From assembly GCF_014218335.1 (NCBI RefSeq), contig NZ_AP023367.1:2543501-2607500 (forward strand): a stretch of 64,000 nucleotides of DNA, read 5' to 3'. The notes beneath the pieces were generated by a model. It made no database searches. It was not told the origin of the DNA and worked only from the letters and a program-made list of their open reading frames with translations. This stretch comes from Anaerocolumna cellulosilytica (GTDB lineage: Bacteria > Bacillota > Clostridia > Lachnospirales > Lachnospiraceae). Of the stretch, positions 5,341 through 61,725 are shown piece by piece. The position numbers and the translations under genes were made by a program. Every line of letters begins with the position of its first letter. Position 1 is the first letter of the stretch.

Positions 5341-5384
5341 ATTCTGATTTATACGTGTGCAAGCGCAAAGCACACAGATGGAAG
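5341..5384 (+). repeat. hairpin-AGATGGGAG leader element, copy 1 (tandem array)
   Basis: GTGTGC, nine loop bases, then GCACAC, followed by AGATGGAAG. This copy has GGAAG where the others have GGGAG, and no start codon follows it directly; it is the first unit of a tandem array leading to the deacetylase gene. Confidence 0.85.
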
Positions 5385-5420
5385 TCAGGTTGAAAAAACG
5401 ATAAGATATTTTTTCAACAT

Positions 5421-5457
5421 CTTGATTTGTATGTGTGCTAGGGCACACAGATGGGAG
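5421..5457 (+). repeat. hairpin-AGATGGGAG leader element, copy 2
   Basis: CTTGATTTGTAT precedes GTGTGC-TAGG-GCACAC and then AGATGGGAG. It is identical in sequence to copy 3, 75 bases downstream. Confidence 0.9.
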
Positions 5458-5495
5458 TTTAGGTTGAAAAAACGATAAGATATTTTTTTCAACAT

Positions 5496-5532
5496 CTTGA
5501 TTTGTATGTGTGCTAGGGCACACAGATGGGAG
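5496..5532 (+). repeat. hairpin-AGATGGGAG leader element, copy 3
   Basis: Identical to copy 2 over the whole 37 bases, with a TAGG loop. The near-identity suggests recent duplication or gene conversion within the array. Confidence 0.9.
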
Positions 5533-5569
5533 TTTAGGTTGAAAAAACGATAAGATATTTTTTCAACAT

Positions 5570-5606
5570 CTTGATTTGCATGTGTGCTAAAGCACACAGA
5601 TGGGAG
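5570..5606 (+). repeat. hairpin-AGATGGGAG leader element, copy 4, supplies RBS
   Basis: GTGTGC-TAAA-GCACAC then AGATGGGAG, ending six bases before the ATG at 5613. The terminal GGGAG is the only ribosome site for the deacetylase gene. A spurious in-frame ATG inside the element at 5571 would add 14 residues; these are element-encoded and not real protein. Confidence 0.9.
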
Positions 5607-5612
5607 TTTAAA

Positions 5613-8600
5613 ATGAATCGTTATAAAAAACGTATTTTACTGAATATAGCTTTCATTGTCATAGCCGGTGGTGCATTGGTCTACTTCCTGTTTTTCTATG
5701 GAAGGGATAAAGAGTCACAGACAGTAAATGGAACACAGACATTATACGACTCTGCGAGTGATATAAAAAAGGCTCTTTTAAGCCTTGAAGACAAAGACGG
5801 AAAAGCGGAAGTTATAGGCAGCATAAATACGTTTGAAAAGGTGGCTGCTCTTACTTTTGACGGAATGCTTACACAGGAGACGGGAGAAAAGCTAATCTCT
5901 CTTCTTAATAAATATGATGTAAAAGCAGTATTTTTCCTGCCTGGTATACCTGCGGCAGAAGATTCTGATATGGTAAGGCTTCTTTCTGAAAGTGGACAAA
6001 CCATAGGCAACTATACCTTATCCGCCAGAAAGTATCTGGAGGAGCTAACAAAAGAAGAACTGGTAGAAGATTTTGTTAAGACAAATCGCATCCTTTTAGA
6101 TATTACGGGAGGGGCTCCAGAAGTGTTAAAAGCCAATGTAACAGAATACACGGATGATTTTCTGTACGCGGCTTACGCAAGTGGTTTAAAACAGGTAGTA
6201 AAAAGTGATTATTATCTGAACTATCAAAGTTTCTCAAATAAAAAGACTGCTTTAGAATTCTTAAAAGGTATCAAAAGAGGTGCCGTTATATCCTTTAAAA
6301 CAGATAGTTCTTTGGATGAATCTGAATATGATAATTCTAAAAAATCAGAAGAAGAAAAACCTGCAATTGATAAGGAGCCAACCATTGAAACCAAGGACAT
6401 GACTCCAGTTAATAAGGATACTGCTTTTTTACAAAATGTTGAATACCTGCTACAGGCTATGGCAGTGGAAAACTATTCTTTTGTAGCAGTTGATGAATTA
6501 AATCTTTATAGGGACATGGATTATACATTCGATTTTACCCAGTTAAGAAACCTGAACAAAGGTAAGCTTGCTAAGGTTTATAAAAATATGAATACCGCTT
6601 TGCCTTCCGTAGCATTGACCTTTCGAGGTATAAGTGATGAAGAGAAAGTTACAAAAATGTTAGGTCTCTTAAAAGAGAAGGATTTAAAGGCAACTTTTTT
6701 TGTGACAGGAGAAGAAATACTTAACTATCCGGAGAGAATTGAAGCAATCATAAAGGATGGGCATCAGGTTGGTAACGGAGGTTTAAGCGGTGCCTCTTTA
6801 GAAGATGCTGCTTTTGAAAAGGCAGTCTTTGAAATATACAAAACAGATGTATTGTTAAAAGATAAATATAATATTAATACCAAGCTTTTTATGCCGGTGT
6901 ATGGAAAATATAATGATAAAGTCAGGGAAGCAGCGTCTGCTTTGGGTTATAAGGTAATTACTTATAGTAAAAATCCGGTTACAGAAGATAGAAGTACGCT
7001 TCATAGTTTATTAATCTATTTTAAGAACGGTTTCCGACAGGGGGATATTCTGTTTTTTAGGTTGGATTATCATAACGATATCGTAAAAGTCGTTACAAAG
7101 ACGTATGAATTACTGGAAAACTCATCAAAAACAGTAGCTTTAGTAAAGGACATGCTTACAAACCCCTTTGTACTTCCTTCATCAAATAGTAAACCGGTTC
7201 CCTCAAAAACAGGAGGTTCTAAAGGCAACGGTGGCAAAAAGCCGGACAAAGAGATTACCATTACACCTAAGCCCGAGGAACCCGTAAAAGAAGAGGATAC
7301 AGATCCCTACCAAGTTGATAAATCTCCGGATAATTATGCAGGGATGAGAAAGCATAATCAGGGAAAAACAGCGGTACAATTAACCAATCTTTACACAACC
7401 CAGCCGGCAGTTTCCTTTGTATTCCGGGATATCTCTAACCGAGAATCTTTGCTAAAGGTATTGAAGGAGCTTGATAGATTAAATGCCAAGGGAACCTTTT
7501 TTGTAACCGGCAAGGAAATCATGAAATACGAAAGTAATATAGATGAAATCGTAAAATACGGACAGGATATCGCCAACGGTGGTTACGGCATGAACTCAAG
7601 CAATCCAAGTTCCCTCAGTTATGAAGAGATTAGTTATGAAATTGATATGGGTGAGAGATATTTAAAGGCTTATCTGGGGGATGCTTACGATGACACCGTT
7701 AATAAGTATTACATGCCTATGTATGCAGATGCCGGCGGCAATGTGTTAGAAGCTGCTAAGGCATTAGGGTATGAAAAGGTTATTACTTATAACAGAAGTA
7801 CCATGACTAAGGCATATCAAAACCTTTCAGCGGAGGAAATTATTAGTAAATACTATTCCAATATGTCTGCACTTTATCGGGGAGATATTGTATACTTTCG
7901 ATTGGATTATTTAACGAATAAAAATCAAATTGAAAAACTAGTATATCAGACGGGGACAAAATTGGTGAAAAATGCAACCTATGATATAGTTTCCGTGGCA
8001 ACTCTGGCTGAGAGTAATTTAGTATATGAAGCAAGATCCAGAACAGATGCAATAGGGGGTAACTTGGTTAAGAAAGCCTATGGTTACCCAGAGAATAACC
8101 TTCTAAAGAAGCTTTTTACACATTATATTGGAAACCCTTTTATTGATTCCAGTGAAGTTCTTCACGGATTGACCGAGGAGGAGATTAAGAGAATAGATAC
8201 TACAGGAAAGATAGATACAAAGGGTGAAAAAGTAATATTTCTTACCTTTGATGACTGGGGCTATGACGATAATATAACTAAGTTACTGAATGTCTTAAAA
8301 AAATACAATGTAGAAGCCAGCTTTTTTGTAAGGGTAGGTAATGAAAAGATGTCCTTTGACAGTGACTTTACAAATCCAAACTTGTTAAGAGCGATTGCAC
8401 TGGAGGGACATGATATAGGAAACCATACATTTCGTCATATGAAGGTAGATATTACCTCCCAGGCGGAAAAGGAACTGTTGCAGCAGGATATATTGACTGC
8501 TCATCAGGAAATGTCTAGATATATCGGAGATACGGGAAATTTAAAATTACTATTTAGACCACCGACTCTGGCTGTAAGTAAATTAGGTCTTGAAACAGTA

Positions 8601-8924
8601 TTTGACAGTGGTTACGATTATATAATAAACGGAGATTTTAGCACCCACGACTATGAGGCAGCCAGTGCAGAAGAACTAATTCACAAACTAAAATACGGTA
8701 TTAATGAGGATGATGCCAGCCAGTGGGTAACAGAGGATACGCCTGAGGAATCTATTTTACGCATTGAATCCGGCAGCATAGTAGTTATGCATATGTCGGA
8801 GGATGCCAGGTATACGCCGGAAGCACTGGATGCAGTTATTCCTTATTATATAAAAAAAGGATATCGCTTTGCTAAATTAAGCGATTACTTAAAGAACGGA
8901 TACGAGCAAGCTTCGGGTAATTAA
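5613..8924 (+). CDS. membrane-anchored protein with four NodB-like domains, only the last with catalytic motifs
   Basis: A 1103-residue polysaccharide deacetylase-family protein, anchored by one N-terminal membrane segment (about residues 8-27) and otherwise outside the cell. Four NodB-like units start near residues 75, 328, 596 and 872. The last has the expected catalytic signature: TFDDW (D880/D881), HTFRH (H938/H942) and RPPT. The first three read TFDG, TFRG and VFRD and have NYTLSARKY, NGGLSGAS and NGGYGMN where the metal-binding His pair should be, so they look non-catalytic and may bind polymer. A Lys/Pro-rich linker lies at about 520-570. The start at 5613 follows the element-borne GGGAG. 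It is followed 27 bases later by the synthase gene, suggesting N-deacetylation of the exported polymer. Confidence 0.88.
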   Translation: MNRYKKRILLNIAFIVIAGGALVYFLFFYGRDKESQTVNGTQTLYDSASDIKKALLSLEDKDGKAEVIGSINTFEKVAALTFDGMLTQETGEKLISLLNKYDVKAVFFLPGIPAAEDSDMVRLLSESGQTIGNYTLSARKYLEELTKEELVEDFVKTNRILLDITGGAPEVLKANVTEYTDDFLYAAYASGLKQVVKSDYYLNYQSFSNKKTALEFLKGIKRGAVISFKTDSSLDESEYDNSKKSEEEKPAIDKEPTIETKDMTPVNKDTAFLQNVEYLLQAMAVENYSFVAVDELNLYRDMDYTFDFTQLRNLNKGKLAKVYKNMNTALPSVALTFRGISDEEKVTKMLGLLKEKDLKATFFVTGEEILNYPERIEAIIKDGHQVGNGGLSGASLEDAAFEKAVFEIYKTDVLLKDKYNINTKLFMPVYGKYNDKVREAASALGYKVITYSKNPVTEDRSTLHSLLIYFKNGFRQGDILFFRLDYHNDIVKVVTKTYELLENSSKTVALVKDMLTNPFVLPSSNSKPVPSKTGGSKGNGGKKPDKEITITPKPEEPVKEEDTDPYQVDKSPDNYAGMRKHNQGKTAVQLTNLYTTQPAVSFVFRDISNRESLLKVLKELDRLNAKGTFFVTGKEIMKYESNIDEIVKYGQDIANGGYGMNSSNPSSLSYEEISYEIDMGERYLKAYLGDAYDDTVNKYYMPMYADAGGNVLEAAKALGYEKVITYNRSTMTKAYQNLSAEEIISKYYSNMSALYRGDIVYFRLDYLTNKNQIEKLVYQTGTKLVKNATYDIVSVATLAESNLVYEARSRTDAIGGNLVKKAYGYPENNLLKKLFTHYIGNPFIDSSEVLHGLTEEEIKRIDTTGKIDTKGEKVIFLTFDDWGYDDNITKLLNVLKKYNVEASFFVRVGNEKMSFDSDFTNPNLLRAIALEGHDIGNHTFRHMKVDITSQAEKELLQQDILTAHQEMSRYIGDTGNLKLLFRPPTLAVSKLGLETVFDSGYDYIINGDFSTHDYEAASAEELIHKLKYGINEDDASQWVTEDTPEESILRIESGSIVVMHMSEDARYTPEALDAVIPYYIKKGYRFAKLSDYLKNGYEQASGN

Positions 8925-8960
8925 AGTTTGGATTAATCATACAAAGGGGCTATGAGAGCT

Positions 8961-10841
8961 ATGGAACTACTCAAACAATGGAAGATAAAAAGAGAGGTAG
9001 AAACAGAAGATATTTTATTGGCACCTTTAAAAGATAGAAGACTGCTTTCTGATGTACCGGACAAAGAAGCTCTGCGGACGAATATAGACCGCAGGGGTAA
9101 AAAGACTCTGGAAAATGAAGATACGAATATGCAGGCGTATATCCAAAGTAAGCAGTTAGGGGTGCGATATCAAGTAAATTATGCGGTTGAACTAACGTAT
9201 ATTCAGAAAAATGGAAACAAGGTAAAAATAGAGGGAATTGGGGAAGATATATCTACCACCGGGATTTTAATTAAGTTAAAGGAAAAACAACAGCTTCTTG
9301 AAATAAACGAAGCCAAAAAGATTATATTAAGATTTGAAATTCTACCTGGGACCATGCCGGAAGGCTATGAAATGAAGGTTCAAGTTCCTGCAATTGTAGC
9401 ACGTTCCTGGATAGCAGAAGATGCTTCGTGCTATTGTGCCTTTGAATTCCTGACCACTCTGGCACAGTATGCCAGTAGAAAAAAGGGCAGAGTAGTACTA
9501 CTTATGTCAAGTCTGCTGCTTTTATTTATTACTGTATTTATCCTGCTTATGAGAGCAGAGAGTATCTTATATTTTAAATTTAATAAGTATCTTTATTTAT
9601 ACAGTATCATTGCAGCTACCTTTTTACTGAGCAGATATTTATTCGGGGCATTGTATAAACCCATGGAAATAAATACAGAATTCACACCGGGAGTAACGAT
9701 TATTATTCCTTGTTTTAATGAAGAGAAATGGATCGAACGAACCATAAACAGTTGTATGAATCAGGACTATCCAATTGATAAGCTGGAAGTCATTGTAGTT
9801 GATGATTGTTCGAATGATAATTCGGTAGAGGCAATCAAAGTGGCGGTGGAAAAGCTTCATAAACAAGCCGGACGATTTAAGACCGAAGAGCGGCTTAGAT
9901 ATGCGGTACAGGAAGAAAATGGAGGAAAAAGAGAGGCACTGGCTAGAGGAGCACTTATGGCAAAACATGAGCTTGTGGTATTCGTAGATTCTGACAGCTT
10001 TTTAGACCCATATGCCATTAGAAATCTGGTACAGCCATTTCAGGATCCTAAAATGGGAGGCGTATCGGGTCGGACAGATGTGGCCAATACCTATACCAAT
10101 GCATTAACAAAAATGCAATCGGTTCGTTATTACATTGCCTTTCGTATCATGAAGTCAGCAGAAGCCTATTTTGATGCGGTAACCTGCCTTTCCGGCCCCT
10201 TATCCTGCTATCGGAAAGATTTAGTGCTGCTTAATATGAAAGACTGGTTAAACCAAAAGTTTTTGGGACAAAAAGCAACCTTCGGCGATGACAGGAGTCT
10301 TACTAATTTCATTTTAAAGAAGTATCGTACAAGCTATCAGGATTCAGCAGTCTGTTATACCATTGTACCTAATTCCTATAAGACATTTCTTAAACAGCAG
10401 ATGCGCTGGAAAAGGTCTTGGCTTAGAGAATCCATTATTGCCGGCAGTTTCATCTGGAAGAAAGAACCGTTTACCTCTCTTTTCTTTTATATGGGGCTTG
10501 TAGTTCCCATTGCTGCTCCTGTAGTTGTACTTTATAATCTCATATATGTACCTGTAATGCATAGGGTATTTCCAACTACATTTTTAGTGGGCCTATTAAT
10601 GATGTCTCTATTAATGAGCTTTACCCAGTTATTTTACCGTAAGAGTACAACCTGGTTATTTGGCATGCTTTTTTGTATCTATTACGAGGCTGTACTGCTC
10701 TGGCAGATGCCCGTTGCATGGGTGACTTTCTGGAAATCGACCTGGGGAACAAGGATGACACCGGAGGATTTAAAAGAAGAAAAGCGGAAAGCTGAAAAAA
10801 GAGATGAAGTGCTTCAAAAACAGGCAAAGAAAAAAAGGTAG
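8961..10841 (+). CDS. PilZ-domain family 2 glycosyltransferase (polysaccharide synthase)
   Basis: A membrane GT2 synthase of the BcsA/hyaluronan synthase/PgaC type, about 626 residues. A PilZ-like domain lies near residues 60-165, with GEDISTTGILI fitting D-x-S-x-x-G; the usual RxxxR partner is seen only as RYQVN, so c-di-GMP binding is uncertain. Two membrane segments follow, then the catalytic domain with VVDDCSND, FVDSDSF (DxD), SGPLSCYR, GDDR and the processive motif QQMRW, then several more membrane segments. The ATG at 8961 is preferred because AAAGGGG is 11 bases upstream; the in-frame ATG at 8952 lies only two bases from it. The C-terminus is very lysine-rich. It probably polymerises and extrudes a GlcNAc- or uronate-containing chain. 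Confidence 0.86.
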   Translation: MELLKQWKIKREVETEDILLAPLKDRRLLSDVPDKEALRTNIDRRGKKTLENEDTNMQAYIQSKQLGVRYQVNYAVELTYIQKNGNKVKIEGIGEDISTTGILIKLKEKQQLLEINEAKKIILRFEILPGTMPEGYEMKVQVPAIVARSWIAEDASCYCAFEFLTTLAQYASRKKGRVVLLMSSLLLLFITVFILLMRAESILYFKFNKYLYLYSIIAATFLLSRYLFGALYKPMEINTEFTPGVTIIIPCFNEEKWIERTINSCMNQDYPIDKLEVIVVDDCSNDNSVEAIKVAVEKLHKQAGRFKTEERLRYAVQEENGGKREALARGALMAKHELVVFVDSDSFLDPYAIRNLVQPFQDPKMGGVSGRTDVANTYTNALTKMQSVRYYIAFRIMKSAEAYFDAVTCLSGPLSCYRKDLVLLNMKDWLNQKFLGQKATFGDDRSLTNFILKKYRTSYQDSAVCYTIVPNSYKTFLKQQMRWKRSWLRESIIAGSFIWKKEPFTSLFFYMGLVVPIAAPVVVLYNLIYVPVMHRVFPTTFLVGLLMMSLLMSFTQLFYRKSTTWLFGMLFCIYYEAVLLWQMPVAWVTFWKSTWGTRMTPEDLKEEKRKAEKRDEVLQKQAKKKR

Positions 10842-10997
10842 ATTTATTTACATGCAAAAATAGTAGTAGTAATATGTTTAAATAGGGAACAAGATAATAA
10901 CCGACTACTATAATAATAGTGTAGTGATTACTATATTATTGCAATCATTGACTTTGATAAAGGGATGAAAGAACCTGAGATAAAGGAGCTGCTTTAA

Positions 10998-12863: not shown

Positions 12864-12884
12864 TAAGGACGGTGAGTTTACCCC

Positions 12885-13976: not shown

Positions 13977-13977
13977 A

Positions 13978-14027: not shown

Positions 14028-14039
14028 TGTATCCTATCC

Positions 14040-14952: not shown

Positions 14953-14979
14953 AGGTTTTACAGCTAGGAGGAGAATCGA

Positions 14980-35726: not shown

Positions 35727-35916
35727 CCTCACTTTGACAAGTGAGGTAGAGGCGCGGTATTTAACAGTCTGTTGTGGAGTCTGAGTGGCAAAGATGCTAT
35801 GGAGAAGGAAATATCGCCGAAGTGTATAATACACTCCGTATTATATGCTGGGACTACAGTTAAGAGCTGTAGGACTGTCTCAATGAACTTCCCAGTTTAT
35901 TGAGTTGTGCTATCTC
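35727..35916 (+). promoter_or_regulatory. lysine riboswitch (L box) aptamer
   Basis: The conserved L-box segments occur in order: GAGGTAGAGGCGC (35743-), GAGAAGGAAATATCGCCGAAG-like core, GCTGG, GGACTGTC and the closing TGCTATCTC. P1 is formed by GAGGTAG (35743-35749) with CTATCTC (35910-35916). An upstream hairpin CCTCACTT/AAGTGAGG (35727-35746) overlaps the P1 5' strand and could compete with it. Lysine binding should stabilise P1 and favour the downstream terminator. Confidence 0.93.
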
Positions 35917-35950
35917 CGATGGGAAAATGGTGGGGACAAAGGATTTTTTA

Positions 35951-45274: not shown

Positions 45275-45328
45275 TTAAAACAATATGAAGTATAGTAGGA
45301 GTGAAGTTCAGATACAGATATTCAACTC

Positions 45329-45364
45329 CTCGATTTGTACGCGACCAAAGGTCGCAGATGGGAG
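45329..45364 (+). repeat. hairpin-AGATGGGAG leader element, copy 5 (stem replaced), supplies RBS
   Basis: CTCGATTTGTAC then GCGACC-AAA-GGTCGC then AGATGGGAG, ending six bases before the ATG at 45371. The stem sequence differs wholly from GTGTGC/GCACAC but still pairs perfectly, which argues that the RNA fold is what matters. It lies between the GntR and ATPase genes, inside the operon. Confidence 0.85.
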
Positions 45365-45370
45365 AAAATT

Positions 45371-46060
45371 ATGATTTTACAAAGTAATAATCTTGTGAAA
45401 AAATATATGAGTAAAACTGCTGTTAACGGCATTACGCTGGATATTGAGGCCGGTAAAGTATATGCGTTACTAGGGCCCAATGGCAGCGGAAAAACCACCT
45501 GGATGAAGATGGTAGCAGGACTGGTTAAGCCAACCAGTGGAACGATTACCTATAAAGGCATCTCTATTGGAATCGAATCCAAAAGTAAGATTGCATATAT
45601 GTCTACAGAGCCTTTCTTTTACAATTATATGACAGTTAAGGATGTGGGCAAATATTACAAAGACTTCTTTTCAGATTTTGATGAAAAACGATATGAAGAA
45701 CTGATTGAACGTATGGAATTATCTATGAAGGACAAAGCAAAGAGCTTATCCTCCGGTATGGCCGCTAAATTAAAAATCGCCGCCACTATGGCTAGAAAAG
45801 CAGAACTCTATATGCTGGATGAACCTTTAAATGGTATTGATATAATTGCCAGAGAGAGAATTATCACTACAATTCTTGAGGTAACGGGTGAGGAAGCCAC
45901 TCTTATTATATCCTCACATTTAGTAGATGAATTGGAAAAAATCATTGACAATGCTATCTTTGTTAAAAAAGGAACCATTGCAATGAACGGAGAGGCAGAA
46001 GAACTCCGCTTAGCTCATGGCAAATCTATAGTTGAATTATATAAAGAAGTATATGCATAA
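45371..46060 (+). CDS. ABC transporter ATPase (YtrB-like)
   Basis: A 229-residue ABC ATPase: Walker A GPNGSGKTT, a degenerate signature LSSGMAAKLKIA, Walker B LYMLDEPLNGID and switch His in IISSHLVDE. It belongs with the short ATPases linked to ABC-2-type membrane proteins, exporting a peptide or lipid-like substrate. The ATG at 45371 follows the leader element; an upstream in-frame ATG at 45335 lies in the hairpin. Regulator, ATPase and membrane protein form one operon. Confidence 0.88.
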   Translation: MILQSNNLVKKYMSKTAVNGITLDIEAGKVYALLGPNGSGKTTWMKMVAGLVKPTSGTITYKGISIGIESKSKIAYMSTEPFFYNYMTVKDVGKYYKDFFSDFDEKRYEELIERMELSMKDKAKSLSSGMAAKLKIAATMARKAELYMLDEPLNGIDIIARERIITTILEVTGEEATLIISSHLVDELEKIIDNAIFVKKGTIAMNGEAEELRLAHGKSIVELYKEVYA

Positions 46061-51179: not shown

Positions 51180-51199
51180 GGGAATTAGTGTGAAATGAA

Positions 51200-51232
51200 A
51201 GTGCTATAAGCACTAGGGCACACAGATGGGAG
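51200..51232 (+). repeat. hairpin-AGATGGGAG leader element, copy 6, supplies RBS
   Basis: AGTGCTATAAGCACTAGG then GCACAC and AGATGGGAG, five bases before the ATG at 51238. Here the stem is AGTGC/GCACT, an inner-stem variant that lacks the GTGTGC arm. It lies between the binding-protein and permease genes. Confidence 0.8.
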
Positions 51233-51237
51233 TTGAG

Positions 51238-52164
51238 ATGAGTAAGAAAACAACAAAAACTACAAATAATGAATGGTCCCTGTTAAACCAAATTAAGCGC
51301 AGCAAGACATCATATATCATGCTTGCACCCTATTTCATACTATTTTTCCTGTTTACAATATTACCGGTTATTACTTCTATTGTTTTTAGCTTTACCAATT
51401 TTAATATGTTAGAACTGCCAGAATTCGTTGGATGGGATAATTACATTCGATTATTGTTAGATGATGATATCTTTAAAACAGCGATCCGAAACACCTTGAT
51501 TTTTGCTGTTATTACAGGACCAGTCAGTTATTTTATGTGTTTAATCTTTGCTTGGATTATTAATGAATTCAAGGGTAAGGTAAGGGCACTTTTAACACTG
51601 ATATTTTATGCTCCCTCCATCTCTGGTAATGCCTTTGTTATATGGTTAATTATTCTCTCTGGTGATCGTTATGGGTATCTAAATGGTTTTCTCATGCGAT
51701 GGGACTTTATCAGTGAACCCATCTTATGGTTAAAAACAGAAAAATACGTACTGCCACTTCTAATTATTGTTCAATTGTGGCTAAGCCTTGGTACCGGCTT
51801 TTTAACCTTTATAGCGGGACTTCAAACAGTAGATAAAACGTTATATGAAGCAGCAGCAGTAGATGGAGTAAAGAATCGATGGCAGGAGCTTTTCTATGTA
51901 ACCCTGCCATCTATGAAACCCCAGCTAATGTTTGGTGCTGTCATGCAGATTACCCAGTCTTTTGCTGTGGCAGACATATCCATTCAACTGGCAGGCAATC
52001 CAAGTATAAACTACGCAGGAACAACCATTGTAACCCATCTTCTCGACTTTGGTACTTTCCGCTATGAGATGGGATATTCCTCTGCCATAGCCTCTGTTTT
52101 GTTTCTGTTTATGATTGGTACGAATAAACTGGTACAAAGACTGTTAAGAAAGGTGGGCAGTTAG
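51238..52164 (+). CDS. carbohydrate ABC transporter permease (MalF/LplB type)
   Basis: A 308-residue permease with six membrane segments and the EAA loop EAAAVDGVKNRWQELFYVTLP. The soluble N-terminus is short, as in clostridial LplB/UgpA-like permeases. The start follows the leader element. It pairs with the permease encoded immediately downstream (stop and next ATG adjoin) and with the CBM-carrying binding protein. No ATPase gene is in the operon. Confidence 0.9.
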   Translation: MSKKTTKTTNNEWSLLNQIKRSKTSYIMLAPYFILFFLFTILPVITSIVFSFTNFNMLELPEFVGWDNYIRLLLDDDIFKTAIRNTLIFAVITGPVSYFMCLIFAWIINEFKGKVRALLTLIFYAPSISGNAFVIWLIILSGDRYGYLNGFLMRWDFISEPILWLKTEKYVLPLLIIVQLWLSLGTGFLTFIAGLQTVDKTLYEAAAVDGVKNRWQELFYVTLPSMKPQLMFGAVMQITQSFAVADISIQLAGNPSINYAGTTIVTHLLDFGTFRYEMGYSSAIASVLFLFMIGTNKLVQRLLRKVGS

Positions 52165-53052: not shown

Positions 53053-53060
53053 GAAGGTGT

Positions 53061-53117
53061 ACGTGTGCAAGCGCAGATAGCGCTAGTGCTATTAGTACAA
53101 GGGCACACAGATGGGAG
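53061..53117 (+). repeat. hairpin-AGATGGGAG leader element, copy 7 (long form), supplies RBS
   Basis: GTGTGC (53063-53068) is closed by GCACAC, with about 30 bases between, including AGCGC/GCGCT and AGTGC/GTAC-like partial pairs; then AGATGGGAGG, seven bases before the ATG at 53125. Confidence 0.85.
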
Positions 53118-53124
53118 GAAAGGT

Positions 53125-54591
53125 ATGAAATATAAAAGAAAGAAGTATAAAAAGCTGTATGGCTATCTGACATTTGTTTTAGCACTGATACTGTCAGCGA
53201 GTACTACTGTGTCAGCGGATAGTGCGTTACCCTACGAGACTTATAATTTTGACTACTGGGAATATGTATATTATACTCCGGCAGCCTATGTACCGGAAAG
53301 CAGCCTATCGGGTATTGATTTAGGGGTTGGAAGTTTAAGTAATCCCCAGGATTTATTTGTAGCAGCAGATGGCAAAATATACATTGCAGATACAGGGAAT
53401 AACCGCATTCTTATTTTAAATTCGGATTTAACACTTTATAAAGTGATGGAAAACTTTGATAATAACGGCAGTCCTGATACTTTTTTAAACCCATACGGTG
53501 TTTTTGTAACCGGTCAAAATGTGATATATGTAGCTGATATGGATCATAATCGAATTATAGCCCTGCATGAGAACGGGGAGCTAATACGAATTATTAATAA
53601 TCCAGTATCGGAGGTATTGCCAGATAATTTCGTTTTTATACCCATGAAGGTGACGGTAGATTATGCCAACCGTGTTTACGTGATTGTTAAAAATATGTTT
53701 CAAGGTATAATGGCTTTTGATGAAAATGGGAGCTTTACTGGGTTTACCGGAACGATTAAGGTAGCTATCAGCACGTATGACAAGATTTGGAGACGTTTAT
53801 CTACCAAAGCGCAAAGAGCAAGACAGGTACAGTTTATTCCAACGGAATTTACAGGCGTAGATATGGCACCAGATGGCTTTGTATATGCCACTAATATTGA
53901 TACAAAGGGAGTACAGTCAGTCAGGAGGTTGAATCCAAAAGGTCAGGATGTTATTAAGAAGAAAGATGGCAGTTTAAGCGGTGATTTATGGTATAGACTT
54001 GCCGGAGACTATTCCGGAGCATCCAGAATTGTTGATATTGCCTACCGTGATAATGGAATCTATTCTATCATTGATCAGACTAGGGGTAGAATCTTTACCT
54101 ATGACCATGAAGGAAATATTCTTTATATTTTCGGAGGAAGAGGAAGTCAGAAAGGGACTTTTAAAAATCCGGTTGCCATCGAAGCGATAGGCGATGTGAT
54201 TATGGTTCTGGATGCAGGAAGGGGCGAAATAATGACCTTTACGGCAGCAGAGTATGGAAGATTGATTAATGAAGCGGTATCCTTACGTTTTCGCGGTGAT
54301 GAATCAGCAGCGGTAGAAATATGGAAAAAAGTATTATTATTAGATGAGAATTTTGAACTTGCTTATGTTGGTATTGGAAAATCCTATTTGGCAGCAGGAG
54401 AAAATAAAATGGCAATGAAGTACCTAAAGCTTGGAATGGATAGGACGTATTATTCCATTGCGTTTAAACGGTATCGGGATGATATTTTAAAAGAGAATTT
54501 GGGTTCAATACTAACCATTGGCACACTATTGTTTGTAGGAACTGGTATTATACTAAAAATAAAAAGAAAGGGAGGAACAGAGCATGAGTAA
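53125..54591 (+). CDS. NHL-repeat / TPR membrane-anchored protein
   Basis: A 488-residue extracellular protein: signal peptide, then NHL-type beta-propeller repeats (GSLSNPQDLFVAADGKIYIA, NPYGVFVTGQNVIYVADMDH, DMAPDGFVYATN, GTFKNPVAIEAIGDVIMVLD), a short TPR-like helical segment (FELAYVGIGKSYLAAGENKM) and a C-terminal membrane segment (about 463-480) with a basic tail. NHL propellers bind partner proteins or glycans. The start follows the leader element; an in-frame ATG at 53065 lies inside the hairpin. It overlaps the Yip1 gene by 8 bases. Confidence 0.82.
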   Translation: MKYKRKKYKKLYGYLTFVLALILSASTTVSADSALPYETYNFDYWEYVYYTPAAYVPESSLSGIDLGVGSLSNPQDLFVAADGKIYIADTGNNRILILNSDLTLYKVMENFDNNGSPDTFLNPYGVFVTGQNVIYVADMDHNRIIALHENGELIRIINNPVSEVLPDNFVFIPMKVTVDYANRVYVIVKNMFQGIMAFDENGSFTGFTGTIKVAISTYDKIWRRLSTKAQRARQVQFIPTEFTGVDMAPDGFVYATNIDTKGVQSVRRLNPKGQDVIKKKDGSLSGDLWYRLAGDYSGASRIVDIAYRDNGIYSIIDQTRGRIFTYDHEGNILYIFGGRGSQKGTFKNPVAIEAIGDVIMVLDAGRGEIMTFTAAEYGRLINEAVSLRFRGDESAAVEIWKKVLLLDENFELAYVGIGKSYLAAGENKMAMKYLKLGMDRTYYSIAFKRYRDDILKENLGSILTIGTLLFVGTGIILKIKRKGGTEHE

Positions 54592-55207
54592 GAAAGAAAA
54601 ATTATTATATCCATTCTATATAATATCCCATCCCTTTGACGGTTTTTATGAGGTACGGCATCGGGAAAAAGGTAGTGTTTTAGTAGCTCTGTTTCTGGTA
54701 TTTTTATTTGGCTTATCCTTTTCTTTAAATAGAAGATATGCAGGATTTATAGTAAATGTTATTAACCCAAGAACAGTTAACAGCTATGCAGAAATTATAA
54801 GCATCTTTTTGGCAGTCCTGTTATTTGCCGCCGCCAACTGGTCAGTAACCTGCTTAACAGAGGGAGAAGGGCGGTTTAAGGATATTATAACGGTAATTGG
54901 TTATTCCCTGCTGCCAATGGTACTAACCTTTATACCGGCAACCATTTTATCCTGGTTTACCGCATATGGGGAAGAAATCATCTATTATCTCCTTCTTTTA
55001 GTATCCGTTGTATTTTTTTCCATTCTACTCTTAATTGGGATAATGACAATACATAATTTCGGATTCGGTAAGACGCTCTTTACCCTTGTGCTTACTTTCA
55101 TATCTCTCTTGCTGATTCTGTTTGTGTTGCTGCTTTTGATCTCACTCATCAATCAAGTGTATCTGTTTTTTGAAAGTATTTATACAGAACTAATTTTAAG
55201 AATATAG
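54584..55207 (+). CDS. Yip1-domain membrane protein
   Basis: A 207-residue protein with about five membrane segments and the Yip1-family region VTCLTEGEGRFKDIITVIGY. Bacterial Yip1 proteins are widespread and uncharacterised. It overlaps the end of the NHL-protein gene, so the two are translationally coupled and may form a complex in the membrane. AGGGAGG precedes the ATG. Confidence 0.78.
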   Translation: MSKKEKLLYPFYIISHPFDGFYEVRHREKGSVLVALFLVFLFGLSFSLNRRYAGFIVNVINPRTVNSYAEIISIFLAVLLFAAANWSVTCLTEGEGRFKDIITVIGYSLLPMVLTFIPATILSWFTAYGEEIIYYLLLLVSVVFFSILLLIGIMTIHNFGFGKTLFTLVLTFISLLLILFVLLLLISLINQVYLFFESIYTELILRI

Positions 55208-55236
55208 CTTAAAAATAACTAAATATTTTTTAGCTT

Positions 55237-55288
55237 CTTGATTTATACCTGTGCAAGCGCACATTGCACTAGAGCACACAGATGGGAG
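55237..55288 (+). repeat. hairpin-AGATGGGAG leader element, copy 8
   Basis: TGTGC pairs with GCACA around AAGCGCACATTGCACTAGA, then AGATGGGAG. No start codon follows directly; it is the upstream unit of a pair, joined by a GTTGAAAAAA/TTTTTTCAAC hairpin (55293-55315) to copy 9. Confidence 0.85.
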
Positions 55289-55317
55289 TTCAGTTGAAAA
55301 AACCATTTTTTCAACAT

Positions 55318-55353
55318 CTTGATTTGTATGTACGCTGGACCTACAGATGGGAG
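55318..55353 (+). repeat. hairpin-AGATGGGAG leader element, copy 9, supplies RBS
   Basis: CTTGATTTGTATGTA, a weak TGTA/TACA stem, then AGATGGGAG, six bases before the ATG at 55360. The stem is eroded but the flanks and ribosome site are conserved. Confidence 0.85.
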
Positions 55354-55359
55354 TTTAAT

Positions 55360-57981
55360 ATGAAAATAAGTTTAAAGAAAAGCATAAAGCATAAAATGAA
55401 GCGGAACAAAACCCTGTTCATTATAATAGGACTCATTTTAGCTGCCGGAGGTTATCTAACCTATCTTTGTCTGAACTACTTCTTCTATGACACATATAAA
55501 CAGTATCTTACGGAAGCTGTTTATGAAGACGGTTCACAATTTACACCTCTTACGGAAGACAATTCTTATGTATACGGCATGGTTTTAGCAGCAGAAAATG
55601 ATATCTTAAAACTATATACCAATATAGAAACAACAGAGATAGCTGTTTACGATAAACGGAGCAATACAATTACATACTCCAATCCGCCGGACAGAGAGAA
55701 AGACATCCTTGCCTCAGGCAGCAATAAAACAGCATTAAACTCTCAATTTGTACTAAGTTATTACGATAGCAGTATGACAGAAGTAACTATGTATAATTAT
55801 GATTACAGTGTGTTGAAAAAGCAGGTGACAGCAGAAAAAATAAAAGATGGTATTCGCTATACATACCTGTGTGGTAATCTGGACAGTCCAACCGGGTTGG
55901 TGCCCCCTTTTATCACAAAGGAGCGTTTAGAAGAAAAGATATTAAGCAGATTAACTGAAAAAGAAGCTAAGACGTTTAAAAACAGTTATACAGAATCTAA
56001 AACCCTAGAAGGCTTTCTAGAATTGTCAACCGGTGTAAAGGGAAACAAAGTTGGATTATCAAAACTAAATAAGCTTGTGGAGGCTGCCGGCTATACAGTA
56101 GAGGAGTTTGATGCAGACGCACAGGCGGCATCCGGTGATGAAGCCGCTGAAAGAACTACCTTCACAATTCCTTTGGAGTATCGGTTAGAGAAAGATAAGC
56201 TTATAGTATCCGTACCTACGGAACAGATACAGGAAACAGGCGGTGGAAAGCTTGCAAAAATAGATTTACTTTGCTTTTTCGGTGCAGGGGGAACAGAGGA
56301 AGAAGGCTATATGTTAGTACCAAATGGTTCCGGCTCTCTCATACACTTTAATAACGGCAAGCGAACGGAACGGTATAACCAATATATATATGGTATGGAC
56401 GAAGCCATGCAATCCTTTATTGTAGTAGAGAACACAGAAGAGGCAAGACTTCCGGTATTTGGTATAAAAAGAAGGGACAATGCAGTATTTGCCATAATTA
56501 CAGAAGGGGATACCTTGGCAAATTTAATTGCTGATGTATCTGGTGGTGTTAATAGCTATAACTATGTATATCCCTCCTTTCTTTTAAGAGGAACGGAAAA
56601 GGTATCTATGTTTGGTACCGCAGGAGTATCTGCTGATTTACCGGTATTGGAAAAGGATTTGTACCGGCTTACTATTACGGTTGGCTATTCCTTTCTAGAA
56701 AAAGAGGACGCCAGTTATTCGGGTATGGCTACTTATTATCGGACAGAATTAATGAATCGTGGTTTGTTATCGAAAAAATTGCCCTCAGAAAAGATACCTT
56801 TTTATCTGGATGTGGTAGGCGGGGTAAAACAGCAGATGAGTATACTGGGTGTACCTTATCTTGGTGTATACCCTATGACCACCTTTGAGGAGGCACAAGA
56901 TATTGTTAAAACTTTTCAAGCAGAGTCGGTTAACAATCTTCGCATCAATTATTTAGGCTGGTTTAATGGTGGATATTATCATGACGTAGCCAAGGACATT
57001 AAGATAGAAAAGAAACTAGGTGGAAAAAAGGAACTTTTAAAACTAAAAGAATTGTTAGTTAATTCTGGTTCTAAATTATTTGGTGATGTTGCATTTCAGA
57101 AGGTATCTTTTGAATCAGATTACTATAATTATAAAATGGAAAGTTCCCAGTATTATTCCGGTTATGTAATATCCCTGGGTAGAAAGAATCCCGTTACCCT
57201 AAGACAAACTGGTTCCATGGGTTATCAAGAAACTAATTATAATATAGTGTCTCCTAAATTTTTGGTCCGTCATATTGATAAATTCAAAAAAAGCTTAGAA
57301 GAAGTTCCGTTAGATGGTATATCCTTACGAGATATGGGCGAGGTTTTATCTTCTGATAAAAGAAGAACAAATGTTATAAACAGAGAAGAAGCGAAAAAAA
57401 TAATTACAAGTCAATTAATGCTGTTGCAGAATTCTGGTAAAGAGTTGATGATAAACAGTCCCAATGTGTATGCCTTTGCCTATACTAAAGATATACAGAA
57501 TGTACCGGAGGGGCATAATCCGTATTATATTGTAGATGAAGAAATTCCATTTTATCAGATGGTAATCCATGGTATGACAGACTACTGCGGTAACCCCATT
57601 AATTTGAGTGACAATTTTGATAAACAGCAATTGGTTCTTAGAATGTTAGAATATGGTCTGGCACCACATTTTACTTTATCCTATCAGGACTCCAGTGATA
57701 TTAAATATTCCGGCTTAAACAGTCTGTATTCAACACAATACGATAATTGGCTGAAGGCGGGGGTTGCAATCTATCATCAAGTCAATGAAGTGTTACAGTA
57801 TGTAACCGGAAGCACTATAACAGAACATGAGATTTTGGACAATGGTCTGCGTCATATAAGTTATGAGAATGGTTGTACTCTATACATAAACTATAGCAAT
57901 AAAGATAAAACCCATCAGGGAGTTAACATACCGGCCAGAGATTATGTTCTTAAAAAGGGGGCGAAAGGGCATGGCTATTAA
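55360..57981 (+). CDS. DUF5696-type extracellular protein
   Basis: An 873-residue protein with one N-terminal membrane segment (about 19-42) and a long extracellular region. The N-terminal half is beta-rich (AVYDKRSNTITYSNPPDR, GEGYMLVPNGSGSLI-like, TERYNQYIYGMDEAM). The C-terminal half alternates strands and helices (NNLRINYLGWFNGGYYHDV, LDGISLRDMGEVLSSDKRR), compatible with a TIM barrel, and ends in a beta domain. This fits DUF5696 proteins, found beside sugar ABC importers, possibly as glycan-active enzymes. The start at 55360 follows element copy 9; an upstream in-frame start at 55282 lies in element copy 8. Confidence 0.75.
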   Translation: MKISLKKSIKHKMKRNKTLFIIIGLILAAGGYLTYLCLNYFFYDTYKQYLTEAVYEDGSQFTPLTEDNSYVYGMVLAAENDILKLYTNIETTEIAVYDKRSNTITYSNPPDREKDILASGSNKTALNSQFVLSYYDSSMTEVTMYNYDYSVLKKQVTAEKIKDGIRYTYLCGNLDSPTGLVPPFITKERLEEKILSRLTEKEAKTFKNSYTESKTLEGFLELSTGVKGNKVGLSKLNKLVEAAGYTVEEFDADAQAASGDEAAERTTFTIPLEYRLEKDKLIVSVPTEQIQETGGGKLAKIDLLCFFGAGGTEEEGYMLVPNGSGSLIHFNNGKRTERYNQYIYGMDEAMQSFIVVENTEEARLPVFGIKRRDNAVFAIITEGDTLANLIADVSGGVNSYNYVYPSFLLRGTEKVSMFGTAGVSADLPVLEKDLYRLTITVGYSFLEKEDASYSGMATYYRTELMNRGLLSKKLPSEKIPFYLDVVGGVKQQMSILGVPYLGVYPMTTFEEAQDIVKTFQAESVNNLRINYLGWFNGGYYHDVAKDIKIEKKLGGKKELLKLKELLVNSGSKLFGDVAFQKVSFESDYYNYKMESSQYYSGYVISLGRKNPVTLRQTGSMGYQETNYNIVSPKFLVRHIDKFKKSLEEVPLDGISLRDMGEVLSSDKRRTNVINREEAKKIITSQLMLLQNSGKELMINSPNVYAFAYTKDIQNVPEGHNPYYIVDEEIPFYQMVIHGMTDYCGNPINLSDNFDKQQLVLRMLEYGLAPHFTLSYQDSSDIKYSGLNSLYSTQYDNWLKAGVAIYHQVNEVLQYVTGSTITEHEILDNGLRHISYENGCTLYINYSNKDKTHQGVNIPARDYVLKKGAKGHGY

Positions 57982-58903
57982 TAAGAAGATAAAAGCTGCA
58001 AAACATGATAAATTGACGTTGAGACATAAAAGGGCGATTGTTGGCTTGCTCTTTATATCACCTTGGTTTCTTGGATTTTTAATCTATTATGTAAGAAGCC
58101 TGTTTATCACTATTTCTTTCTCTTTAAGCAAAATCAACATAGCAGAAAGCGGAGGATATACTTCTCAATTTATCGGACTAAATAATTTTAAATATGCCCT
58201 GTTTCAAGATGCAAATTTTAATCAATTATTTGTCAATTCTATTATAGACATATTAATTGATGTACCTTTTATTATATTCTTCAGCTTGTTCATTGCATTG
58301 CTTTTAAATAGCAAATTTAGGGGACGAGGGCTAGTTCGAGCAATCTTTTTTCTACCGATACTATTGGGGTCCGGTGCTGTAGCAAACACACTATTGTTAG
58401 CAACACAGAATATTCAGGGTGGTGCCGGTGCTGTAGCTTCAGAAATGTCTGGCATATCGGGAGTGAATATAGATTATTTTCTAAGTATATTTACAGATTT
58501 AGGGCTTCCGGATAAACTGCTTGATTATATAGTTGATTTGATTGGCAGAATCTTTGATATTGTAAGAGCTTCTAGTGTACAGATAATAATATTTATAGCT
58601 GCATTACAATCTGTACCGCATTCTCTGTATGAAGTTTCCAATATTGAAGGTGCTACAACATATGAAACCTTTTGGAAGGTCACATTTCCAATGGTTTCTC
58701 CTCTGATTCTTACGAATGTAGTTTATACCATAGTTGATTCCTTTGTGGGAAGTTTAGTCGTTGACACCGCCTATGAGGCTGCTTTTGTAAATTATAACTA
58801 TGGGTTAAGTTCCGCTATGAGTATTCTAAGTACTGCCGTTGTATGTGTTATTTTAGTGACAGTTGGTACCATATTAACCAGGAAAACATTTTACTATAAT
58901 TAA
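57971..58903 (+). CDS. carbohydrate ABC transporter permease, second set (MalF-like)
   Basis: A 310-residue permease with six membrane segments, the EAA loop EVSNIEGATTYETFWKVTFP, and an unusually long extracellular insertion between segments (GGAGAVASEMSGISGVNID and following). It overlaps the DUF5696 gene by 11 bases. The ATG at 57971 follows GGGGGCGAAAGGG. This couples it to DUF5696, supporting a joint function. Confidence 0.88.
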   Translation: MAINKKIKAAKHDKLTLRHKRAIVGLLFISPWFLGFLIYYVRSLFITISFSLSKINIAESGGYTSQFIGLNNFKYALFQDANFNQLFVNSIIDILIDVPFIIFFSLFIALLLNSKFRGRGLVRAIFFLPILLGSGAVANTLLLATQNIQGGAGAVASEMSGISGVNIDYFLSIFTDLGLPDKLLDYIVDLIGRIFDIVRASSVQIIIFIAALQSVPHSLYEVSNIEGATTYETFWKVTFPMVSPLILTNVVYTIVDSFVGSLVVDTAYEAAFVNYNYGLSSAMSILSTAVVCVILVTVGTILTRKTFYYN

Positions 58904-58915
58904 AGGAGGGCTGTC

Positions 58916-59905
58916 ATGAAAACGGGTCAATTAAAATTGCAATGGAAAAAAATCCGTCAGGATACTGTATTACAGAATAAAAGAAGTAAGATTCTAACAA
59001 AGTATAAGAAACGGCTTTTTTCTTTATTTAAGTTTCTTATCTTGTTAGGAATTTCTTATATTATATTAGGGCCGATTATAAGCATAGTCAGCAATTCCTT
59101 CTTTTCACCGACAGATGTATATAACCCTTCTGTTTTTCTATTTCCATTAAAACCTACCTTTGATAATTTCCGGCTAGCTATGCTTCGGCTTAATTATGTC
59201 AAAACGCTGAGCTTTACGGTAGTCTATATTAGTTTAATTACATTAATTCAGATTTTTATAACGTCAATGGCAGGATATGGTTTCGCAAGATTTGAATTTC
59301 CATTCAAAAATATTTTGTTTGGATGTGTAATTATAACAATAGTGCTGCCGACGCATACAATAATGCTACCCCTTTACCAGCATTTTAGAAGCTTTGATTT
59401 TTTAGGAATCTTTGAATCAGCCAGAGGCTCTAAGCTAAATCTGCTATCGAGTGAAACACCTATGTTTTTAATGACAATACTAGGCAGCGGATTACGTTCC
59501 GGTTTATATATCTACATATTCAACCAATTTTTCCGCGGTTTGCCAAAAGAAATTGAAGAGGCGGCCTTTATTGATGGAGCCGGCATGTGGTATACCTACC
59601 TTCGAATTATGTTAGTAAATGCTATACCCTCCGTTCTTACCGTAACTGTATTCTCGCTGGTGTGGCAGTACAATGACATGTTTTACGCCAGATTATTTTC
59701 AATGGCTTCTGATCATATAATAACCTTTCGGCTTTCAACGATACAGGCAACTATTGAATTTGTGGATAAGGTTAAGGATCCCTTGATATCGCAGCTTTAT
59801 GTATATGCAGGTGTGATTTTAGTGTTACTGCCAATTTTAGTTATCTATCTGATTTTACAAAAGTATTTTATGGAAGGTGTAGAACGTAGTGGTATAGTGG
59901 GGTAA
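58916..59905 (+). CDS. carbohydrate ABC transporter permease, second set (MalG-like)
   Basis: A 329-residue permease with a long basic N-terminus, six membrane segments and the EAA loop EEAAFIDGAGMWYTYLRIML. AAGGAGG lies before the ATG, 12 bases after the previous stop. Partner of the preceding permease. Confidence 0.88.
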   Translation: MKTGQLKLQWKKIRQDTVLQNKRSKILTKYKKRLFSLFKFLILLGISYIILGPIISIVSNSFFSPTDVYNPSVFLFPLKPTFDNFRLAMLRLNYVKTLSFTVVYISLITLIQIFITSMAGYGFARFEFPFKNILFGCVIITIVLPTHTIMLPLYQHFRSFDFLGIFESARGSKLNLLSSETPMFLMTILGSGLRSGLYIYIFNQFFRGLPKEIEEAAFIDGAGMWYTYLRIMLVNAIPSVLTVTVFSLVWQYNDMFYARLFSMASDHIITFRLSTIQATIEFVDKVKDPLISQLYVYAGVILVLLPILVIYLILQKYFMEGVERSGIVG

Positions 59906-59907
59906 AA

Positions 59908-59923
59908 GTAAACACATGTTTAC
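59908..59923 (+). promoter_or_regulatory. 16-base palindrome before the second binding-protein gene
   Basis: GTAAACACATGTTTAC has 7-base arms around a 2-base centre. It could be an operator for an internal promoter or a small processing hairpin that sets binding-protein levels. Confidence 0.4.
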
Positions 59924-60009
59924 ACCCCTGTTTTGGGCTGCGATGCGATTTAGTGACAGAAGTTCTAACTTTCTAAAAATAAATTATTAATCTATTGGAG
60001 GAGAATTCA

Positions 60010-61473
60010 ATGAAGAAGTGGAGCAAAAAATTACTAACTGTTATCATGGCCTTTATTCTGGTTTTATCCTTGGCCGGCTGTAAGAAAGATAACAACACAC
60101 AAACAGTAAACCAACCAGACAGTACACCAACCGTAGCCCCTGAAACAACCGAACCGACTAAAGGAGAAACCGAGAGCGTAGATGAAATCTACCCAGCTTT
60201 TGACATGCAAAAGAGAACCATTAAAGTCGGTATTTGGTGGGATATGTACTACACGAGTGAACATAATGATATAACAGATAACCCGGGATTGACCAATACG
60301 GAAACAGCCCAAATGATGTTAGACAATGTGAGAAGAATTGAAGAGAAATACAATGTTAGAATTGAATTTGTAAACCTGGGTTGGGAAGGTATCACGGAAA
60401 GTATTAATACTTCTATTATGGCCGGTACACCGGAATGTGATATCTATTTGGCAGACCTGCAATTTGGTATTCCCGCAGTAATTAACGGTCTTGCACAGGA
60501 TTTGACAAAGATAGCCTCTCCGAATAGTGACATGTTTCATGACCAGAAAGTAATAAAACCGTTGGATGCTTTAGGCGGAACGTACCTTTTTTCCGAACAG
60601 GGGCTGCCTCAAAATGGTATCTTTCTTGGTTATAATGGAACTATGATTCAGGAGCTTGGTTTGGAAGATCCTCAAGAACTTTATAAACAAGGTAAATGGA
60701 CCTGGGATAAATTTGCAGAACTTGCAAAAGCAGGCACCAGAGATACGAATGGTGACGGAACTGTAGATGTGTATGGTTTTGGAGGTGTATTCATTGATTT
60801 AATCAATGGATTAAACATGAATAATGGAGGAAGCCTTGCAGGAAATCCTACAGAAGGCCTTTCCACAAAACCAGTAATAGAATCTTTGGAATTTATTAAT
60901 CGTCTTTATAACGTTGACCAATCTGCAAGACCATGGAACACGGAAGATTGGAATGATAATTACTTTGCCTGGTCTGATGGAAAAGTAATGTTTTGGACAG
61001 CTCAGGGTTGGTCTTTGAAACAGGAAGCAGATGCTGCGATAGCAGAAGGCGCAGAATTACCCTTTGATTACCATGTCGTACCTTATCCTTCCGGTCCAAG
61101 CGGTGATGGCAAAGCATATAGTCCAGTATCCGGCAACTGGTATTTTGTGCCCGTCGGTGTACAAGAACCGGAAAAAGTATTACAGGTATTTGAAGAGTAT
61201 TTAAACTGGCATGGTGGAGACAGCGAATATAGAGATGACCCTAGTTGGTTTGAAAGCTGCTTTCAGACGGAAGAAGATTTAGAGATGGCGTACATCACTG
61301 GTGCCAACTTAAAATTAGACCCATGGAGTAGTTTAACCAGCTTTGATTTTGGAAGTAACATCTGGAATCCGATTGTAGTTGATAAAAATGCAACCGTTGC
61401 TCAATCAGTTGAATCCAGTAAACAGGTATTACAGGATGCTCTGGATACCTTCTATGGTGCAAATAAAGAATAA
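60010..61473 (+). CDS. extracellular sugar-binding lipoprotein
   Basis: A 487-residue family 1 solute-binding lipoprotein: signal peptide with LSLAGC (C24), a Thr/Pro/Glu-rich spacer, then IKVGIWWDMYYTSEHNDI, RRIEEKYNVRIEFVN, GTPECDIYLADLQFG and DTNGDGTVDVYGFGG, the last resembling a calcium-binding loop. The GTWTWDKFAELAK-type segment is common to oligosaccharide binders. TTGGAGGAG precedes the ATG. It serves the second permease pair. Confidence 0.9.
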   Translation: MKKWSKKLLTVIMAFILVLSLAGCKKDNNTQTVNQPDSTPTVAPETTEPTKGETESVDEIYPAFDMQKRTIKVGIWWDMYYTSEHNDITDNPGLTNTETAQMMLDNVRRIEEKYNVRIEFVNLGWEGITESINTSIMAGTPECDIYLADLQFGIPAVINGLAQDLTKIASPNSDMFHDQKVIKPLDALGGTYLFSEQGLPQNGIFLGYNGTMIQELGLEDPQELYKQGKWTWDKFAELAKAGTRDTNGDGTVDVYGFGGVFIDLINGLNMNNGGSLAGNPTEGLSTKPVIESLEFINRLYNVDQSARPWNTEDWNDNYFAWSDGKVMFWTAQGWSLKQEADAAIAEGAELPFDYHVVPYPSGPSGDGKAYSPVSGNWYFVPVGVQEPEKVLQVFEEYLNWHGGDSEYRDDPSWFESCFQTEEDLEMAYITGANLKLDPWSSLTSFDFGSNIWNPIVVDKNATVAQSVESSKQVLQDALDTFYGANKE

Positions 61474-61490
61474 ACTATATAATAATACAA

Positions 61491-61523
61491 ACGGCACAAG
61501 GACATAAAACCTTGTGCTGTTTT
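61491..61523 (+). terminator. intrinsic terminator of the transport operon
   Basis: ACGGCACAAGG pairs with CCTTGTGCTGT across about eight bases, then TTTT. Confidence 0.85.
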
Positions 61524-61549
61524 GCATTATGGATTCGAATGAGTTTCGA

Positions 61550-61578
61550 TTGAATTGTTTGAACTTTTCAAGTATAAT
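61550..61578 (+). promoter_or_regulatory. promoter of the dihydrofolate reductase gene
   Basis: TTGAAT (61550-61555), 17 bases, TATAAT (61573-61578). The leader of about 145 bases contains both leader-element copies 10 and 11, so the element is in the 5' untranslated RNA. Confidence 0.75.
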
Positions 61579-61611
61579 GTATATTGTTGTTTTTATAGGA
61601 GGTTTTTTAAC

Positions 61612-61650
61612 ATTCTTATATATACGTGCGCTAATGCAGCAGACAGGCGT
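61612..61650 (+). repeat. hairpin leader element, copy 10 (degenerate)
   Basis: CATTCTTATATATACGTGCG, CTAATGCAGCAGACAGGCG: it aligns with the element consensus but has lost the paired arms and the GGGAG. It precedes an intact copy by the usual tandem spacing (about 75 bases), so it looks like a decayed repeat unit. Confidence 0.55.
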
Positions 61651-61677
61651 TTAAAAATTAAAAGCATTTTTCAATGT

Positions 61678-61725
61678 CCTGATTTTAGGTGTGCAAGTGC
61701 TATTGCACTGGCACACAGATGGGGG
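61678..61725 (+). repeat. hairpin-AGATGGGAG leader element, copy 11, supplies RBS
   Basis: GTGTGC-A-AGTGC-TATT-GCACT-G-GCACAC then AGATGGGGG, six bases before the ATG at 61732. The inner stem and the single A-G mismatch make a clear 11-bp coaxial hairpin. Confidence 0.88.

Follow-up and report, generated by a model that had tools for sequence, protein, structure and literature searches.

MIRU occur in tandem copies, and the palindromic elements derived from IS200/IS605 (PATE, REP/RAYT) carry a pair of subterminal hairpins, are oriented in one way with respect to a target on their 5' side and show no clear target duplication. According to the passages used of PMC12548453, MIRU are short, apparently mobile repeats inserted at start codons, where they hardly disturb the gene; translation of the latter is kept through an ORF coupled to it at −4 nt. 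The pneumococcal repeats BOX, RUP and SPRITE are presented in the consulted passages of PMC3049150 as short structured repeats with MITE features, found in 30–125 copies per genome and largely confined to a species group; BOX is modular.

The family described here is very probably a non-coding mobile repeat of about 60–100 nt, amplified in Anaerocolumna, with the genus delimited as in the tools used, and in certain other Lachnospiraceae, which inserts just 3' of a Shine–Dalgarno sequence (SD) and replaces it; this grade applies to the explanation as a whole. The nearest known kind is the mycobacterial MIRU, likewise apparently mobile repeats at start codons. Compared with them by description, not by sequence, the present repeat differs in carrying an SD and two hairpins, and it comes from a different phylum. 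Its general character is like that of BOX, RUP and SPRITE as described in part of PMC3049150; however, in the passages seen these are not restricted to the gap between SD and start codon, and BOX and RUP possess terminal inverted repeats and duplicate their target, neither of which was seen in the few junctions available here.

The window, that is the whole 64-kb stretch of DNA analysed (positions 2543501–2607500 of the 5.43-Mb single-contig genome), contains eight exact occurrences of AGATGGGAG, all on the + strand, versus 0.45 expected from shuffles. An earlier note had listed eleven copies of a leader element; eight of these are matches to our covariance model at E ≤ 0.01 (starting at 5331, 5389, 5463, 5538, 45306, 55207, 55293 and 61649), and three of the eight (5389, 5538 and 55293) belong to the training set of the model. 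All the copies lie on the + strand. A degenerate copy with the core AGATGGAAG (5331–5390, or G000:2548831–2548890; E = 0.0063) comes first and is followed by a head-to-tail array at 5389–5612, overlooked before as such. The array is composed of a full copy with the 5' hairpin, the TTGATTTG box, the right hairpin and AGATGGGAG (5389–5463; E = 5.2e-11), a second one (5463–5538; E = 7.9e-11) and a third (5538–5612; E = 1.7e-11), the AGATGGGAG of which lies 6 nt before the ATG at 5613 of a polysaccharide deacetylase gene. A copy of subfamily B with the hairpin GCGACC-AAA-GGTCGC (45306–45370; E = 3.4e-7) is located 6 nt before the ATG at 45371 of an ABC ATPase gene. Two further matches form an array, with an upstream member at 55207–55292 (E = 6.6e-4) and a downstream member at 55293–55359 (E = 1.8e-9), 6 nt before the ATG at 55360 of a DUF5696 gene. 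The last match, with the core AGATGGGGG (61649–61731; E = 3.6e-4), lies 7 nt before the ATG at 61732 of the dihydrofolate reductase gene.

The three remaining candidates are not matched by the model and were delimited from the sequence. In those given as 51200 and 53061 the CTTGATTTGT box is missing and the right hairpin and AGATGGGAG are retained: the former is a partial copy reduced to these two parts (51188–51237), 5 nt before the ATG at 51238 of a permease gene, and the latter (53061–53124), which lacks the TGATTTG box and has extra inner hairpins, lies 7 nt before the ATG at 53125 of a gene for an NHL protein. The candidate at 61612 is only a decayed remnant (61610–61650, limits by eye) with neither exact motif. 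The placement 5–8 bases before a start codon, claimed for seven copies, was found for six, at 5–7 nt from an ATG (cores at 5598, 45356, 51224, 53109, 55345 and 61716). Pfam assigns the genes behind them to polysaccharide deacetylase, ABC ATPase, BPD permease, NHL, DUF5696 and DHFR, in agreement with the functions read earlier, and no function is common to them. The box C-T-T-G-A-T-T-T-G-T, given in the note as common to the eleven copies, holds in part: CTTGATTTGT is exact in only three copies and has one mismatch in three more, and the box alone, with one mismatch allowed, gives 14 matches versus 7.87 expected, hardly above chance. At the gathering score, the only Rfam match in the window is a lysine riboswitch located elsewhere (RF00168, 100.6 bits; 35739–35920, + strand), and seven loci of the same genome bearing elements gave none at E ≤ 1, consistent with the view that the element is no described Rfam class.

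The architecture and two main subfamilies were derived from reading the copies. In the unit, a 5' hairpin (GTTGAA..TTCAAC or GTGAAAG..CTTTCAC) is followed by a C/T-rich box with TGATTTG at its end, then by a right hairpin (GTGTGC..GCACAC, GCGACC..GGTCGC or others) and finally by AGATGGGAG; the 5' hairpin GTTGAA..TTCAAC had not been counted as part of it. Subfamily A reads GTTGAAAAA..TTTTTCAAC, ATCYTGATTTGTAC, GTGTGC..GCACAC with a variable loop, AGATGGGAG and TTTA; subfamily B reads GTTGAATAAA..ATTCAAC, CCCTTGATTTGTAC, GCGACC-AAA-GGTCGC, AGATGGGAG and CTAA. The two ends, GTTGAA.. and ..AGATGGGAG, do not form inverted repeats. Head-to-tail copies have a period of about 63–79 bp, and the longest array of the genome consists of eight contiguous model matches, near-identical copies of 70 bp (G000:C1:3296975–3297536, − strand).

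Both hairpins covary, and the proposal of a structured family with a built-in SD is supported. In a MAFFT alignment of 27 sequences (A2), two-sided changes affect five of the six pairs of the right hairpin (helix 3) and one of six in the 5' hairpin (helix 1); among 72 copies from relatives, aligned by fitting to the model, they affect four of six and all six pairs, respectively. In both alignments the covariation score exceeds all 500 shuffles, which ignore relatedness; slid structures, in which relatedness is kept, also scored lower. Helix 2, the putative pairing between box and SD, is for the most part invariant or changed on one side, with two-sided changes in none of eight pairs (MAFFT) and in one of eight (model-fitted).

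This covariation, together with the fixed placement at the start codon and single folds in which the box pairs with the SD, could point to a class of cis-regulatory RNA, be it a riboswitch, a thermometer or a leader bound by a protein, in which AGATGGGAG would be concealed by pairing with a YCYUGAUUU box and translation thereby controlled. We consider such a role highly improbable. Sequestration of the SD was convincing in single folds but failed against shuffled linkers: of the 127 copies, 87 could be parsed, and in these the mean pairing between box and SD is 0.656 for native linkers and 0.670 for shuffled ones; the native value is above the shuffled mean for 43 of the 87, so that hiding of the SD is unsupported. 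The tandem arrays, the functionally mixed genes, the lack of an Rfam match, the orthologues without the element and the empty sites in sister species (see below) also argue against the recognition as a regulatory leader which the earlier note had deduced from the conservation. Copying of a mobile repeat is the better explanation for the high similarity of the copies, and the family looks like a mobile repeat rather than a regulon.

The covariance model (R1) identifies 127 copies in the 5.43-Mb genome at E ≤ 0.01, every one of which was inspected. There are 81 copies located 4–11 nt before an ATG which opens an ORF of at least 30 codons, 79 of them at 4–6 nt (6 nt in 50 cases, 5 nt in 23, 4 nt in six, and 8 nt and 11 nt in one each). 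In the other cases, the copy is followed by another copy (26), precedes another start codon (three) or lies elsewhere (17); some of the latter resemble decayed starts or the ends of arrays. The same ATG test is passed by 901 of 18 058 evenly spaced window sites and by 43 of 376 GGAG sites. The copy set is not fully independent of the ATG, since 15 of the 27 seed sequences came from loci that had been retrieved by a pattern including an ATG. The exact 14-mers CACACAGATGGGAG, chosen without an ATG condition, occur 36 times in the genome and are followed by an ATG after 3–7 nt in 29 cases, no ORF being required; AGATGGGAGN6ATG occurs 55 times, and the controls gave no occurrence for either (reversed patterns in the case of the 14-mers). 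In the relatives, 62 of 84 matches (95 minus 11 that were duplicates of one place or came from the genome under study) precede an ATG, 13 are in arrays and nine are other cases, some resembling GTG starts. The preference for start codons proposed from the window is thus strong genome-wide. The genes behind the copies are functionally mixed and many are housekeeping genes; beyond those tested with Pfam, their names come from reading of the sequence.

Orthologues without the element were found for two genes. The trpB-like gene (Pfam PALP) and pth (Pfam Pept_tRNA_hydro) carry it only in the genome under study; it is absent from the 12 orthologues examined of 13 found and from the 13 examined of 14 found, respectively, the orthologue from G013 being left out of both comparisons. 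In G002, pth has a different repeat-like leader in its place. The species concerned are too distant for alignment of the leaders. Closer comparisons come from three sister species (G011, G012 and G014), which are 88–91% identical in four long common loci and 77–78% in a fifth (L120). At 15 sites of G011 with orthologues in both G012 and G014 (a 16th piece with weak matches only was left out), the element is common to all in 11 cases, sometimes in diverged form, and absent from both relatives in four (L207, L218, L237 and L252). For G014, 17 sites were considered, one of which has no orthologue; of the 16 others, 12 were compared with both genomes and four with a single one. The element is present in every compared orthologue at 15 of the 16, and it is absent from G012 at L310. 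Overall, one or both relatives lack the element at five of 31 sites, and array length differs at more. Since all compared orthologues are occupied at the other 26, as judged by eye on the alignments, turnover of the element is slow. Pairs of loci both holding the exact pattern gave no clean empty site, only differences in array length, as expected from the selection.

The empty sites at clpP, L252 and L310 all consist of SD, spacer and ATG, and the element occupies the gap between SD and ATG. For example, clpP (L207; Pfam CLP_protease) is preceded in G012 and G014 by AAAGGAGGATAACTATG, i.e. AAAGGAGGATA-ACTATG, and in G011 two elements lie between AAAGCAGATA and ACTATG. The old SD is therefore still in place upstream of the elements in G011, in decayed form. 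At L252, GAGAGGAAAGTATG is found without the element and GAGGGGATAG-element-AAGTATG with it. At L310, AAAAGAGGTTACCATG (equal to AAAAGAGG-TTACCATG) corresponds to AAAAGAGG-element-TTACCATG; here the copy is short and the third species, G011, has a variant, so that loss in G012 is as possible as gain. At L218, GATAGGAGTTAAAGTG contrasts with GATAGGAGTTTGT followed by three units and GTG, and at L237 the native leader is replaced and not simply interrupted. No target duplication is seen at the clpP and L310 junctions; the other junctions are ambiguous. The direction of change, gain rather than loss, would follow from the decay of the SD at one site, clpP.

Displaced SDs are also apparent within the genome under study. 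In 59 of 101 copies that are first in their array, the element is closely preceded by a second SD, compared with 12 and 11 of 101 for control positions further upstream. The threshold was a duplex of −6 kcal/mol or better with an anti-SD tail which we take to have its usual sequence; the two exact patterns searched for the 16S tail of this assembly gave no match. By class, the upstream SD is found for 44 of 71 first copies before an ATG and for five of 13 first-in-array copies among those located elsewhere.

Taken together, these observations point to a repeat that has probably moved many times to a place directly behind an SD, each time bringing a replacement SD with it. An enzyme acting in trans would move it into the spacer between SD and start codon, in sense orientation and just 3' of the native SD. 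As its right end is itself an SD, the interrupted gene would receive a new one, usually 4–6 nt before the ATG, and would stay translatable; the repeat-borne SD is presumably the one used. The displaced SD may then decay or become the upstream flank of an array, and arrays may arise by repeated insertion or tandem duplication at one place.

The repeat could also be mobile and land anywhere, only the copies between SD and start surviving selection. This would account for the 17 of 127 copies elsewhere, and for the eight of 13 first-in-array copies among them for which no SD upstream passed the threshold. We find it unlikely, though not negligible: other intergenic DNA should tolerate inserts as well, and more copies away from starts would then be expected; in addition, the left junction coincides with an SD or is near one at three empty sites. 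Because the share of copies elsewhere is small, targeting is favoured over purging of other insertions, and we infer that the repeat is directed to SD sites and does not merely survive there.

Translation might instead be kept by coupling, as in MIRU, with an NTG at the 5' hairpin starting a small leader ORF that delivers ribosomes to the gene. TTGA is indeed found at position 2 in 85 of 127 copies, and the element is often preceded by an SD. On the other side, the leader frames of 97 copies starting with NTGA stop at widely varied codons (2 to 32), 11 of them having no stop within the element plus 30 nt, and a conserved leader peptide was rejected; the frame is not kept by the length of the inner loop; and a relative's copy at L241 starts with GCAGAAAG, without a start codon. 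Coupling of this kind is therefore very unlikely here. As MIRU have a coupled ORF and no leader frame is conserved in the present repeat, we regard the latter as a variant of the MIRU kind, not a member of it.

In its two hairpins, its single orientation relative to a 5' target and the lack of a clear target duplication, the repeat resembles the IS200/IS605-derived elements; it differs in that the Y1 elements of the same genome have other ends and no autonomous partner was found. This genome codes for four Y1 transposases, which represent two IS200-like types with two near-identical copies each (G000:C1:878922, 1697691, 4610801 and 4655984). Mobilisation by these resident elements was rejected, the ends of all four being unrelated to the repeat, and the comparison with them revealed no mobilising enzyme.

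The element is present in this genome and in 12 of 14 relatives of the same genus, and in none of 26 other genomes of the order (under stricter filters, several genomes being incomplete). Across species genomes, GTGCNAANGCACNCAGATGGGAG occurs exactly in 56 stretches, diverged copies being missed by such a pattern; by record title or known affiliation all are Lachnospiraceae, including Anaerocolumna, Lachnoclostridium, Kineothrix alysoides, an Acetatifactor MAG, Clostridium sp. KNHs205 and uncultured members. One pattern searched in viral contigs gave no exact match, and carriage by viruses was rejected. The earlier note had named a match to a known insertion-type repeat as evidence against its proposal; the probable mobile nature of the repeat comes close to this, but no matching known family was found, and the literature matches listed, judged by title or start of abstract, contain no description of this repeat.

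A mobile repeat that brings its own SD could enter the start regions of housekeeping genes (those for peptidyl-tRNA hydrolase and dihydrofolate reductase, and clpP in a relative) without silencing them, and the ribosome-binding sites of many genes in one lineage would then be replacements derived from the repeat. We can envisage, with some reserve and without leaning towards it, a class of mobile elements that have the ribosome-binding site as target: the enzyme would recognize the SD and insert 3' of it on one strand, the right end would copy the target, essential genes would thus be safe landing sites, and several different-looking repeat families might use this strategy and stack at one start codon. 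The sites described amount to a natural series of SD exchanges with which translation could be measured, and they raise the question of which enzyme aims at ribosome-binding sites. Predicted start codons in these genomes may also be wrong, as an older SD precedes the TTG and GTG codons of the repeat.

Other repeats were encountered near the element. One of them has the same plan with another right hairpin (GTGAATTAT..ATAATTCAC, CCTGATTTGTGGCAGTGCC, CATCTG..CAGATG, GGCATGCAATGGGAG); it also precedes start codons and stacks with the present element. It was seen upstream of the element at L207 and L218, in the G011 orthologues of L300 and L309 and, in the genome under study, just upstream of the copy at G000:2704657. 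The copies at G000:1049412, 1138974, 1854539 and 4773961 are immediately preceded by another repeated leader, similar to CATCAAAAAATTGAAAGGCACGGGTATTAG. Finally, a dispersed sequence near GATGTTCACGAAAGGGGTTAATATG has dozens of matches in G011 and G012 and looks like another SD-bearing repeat.
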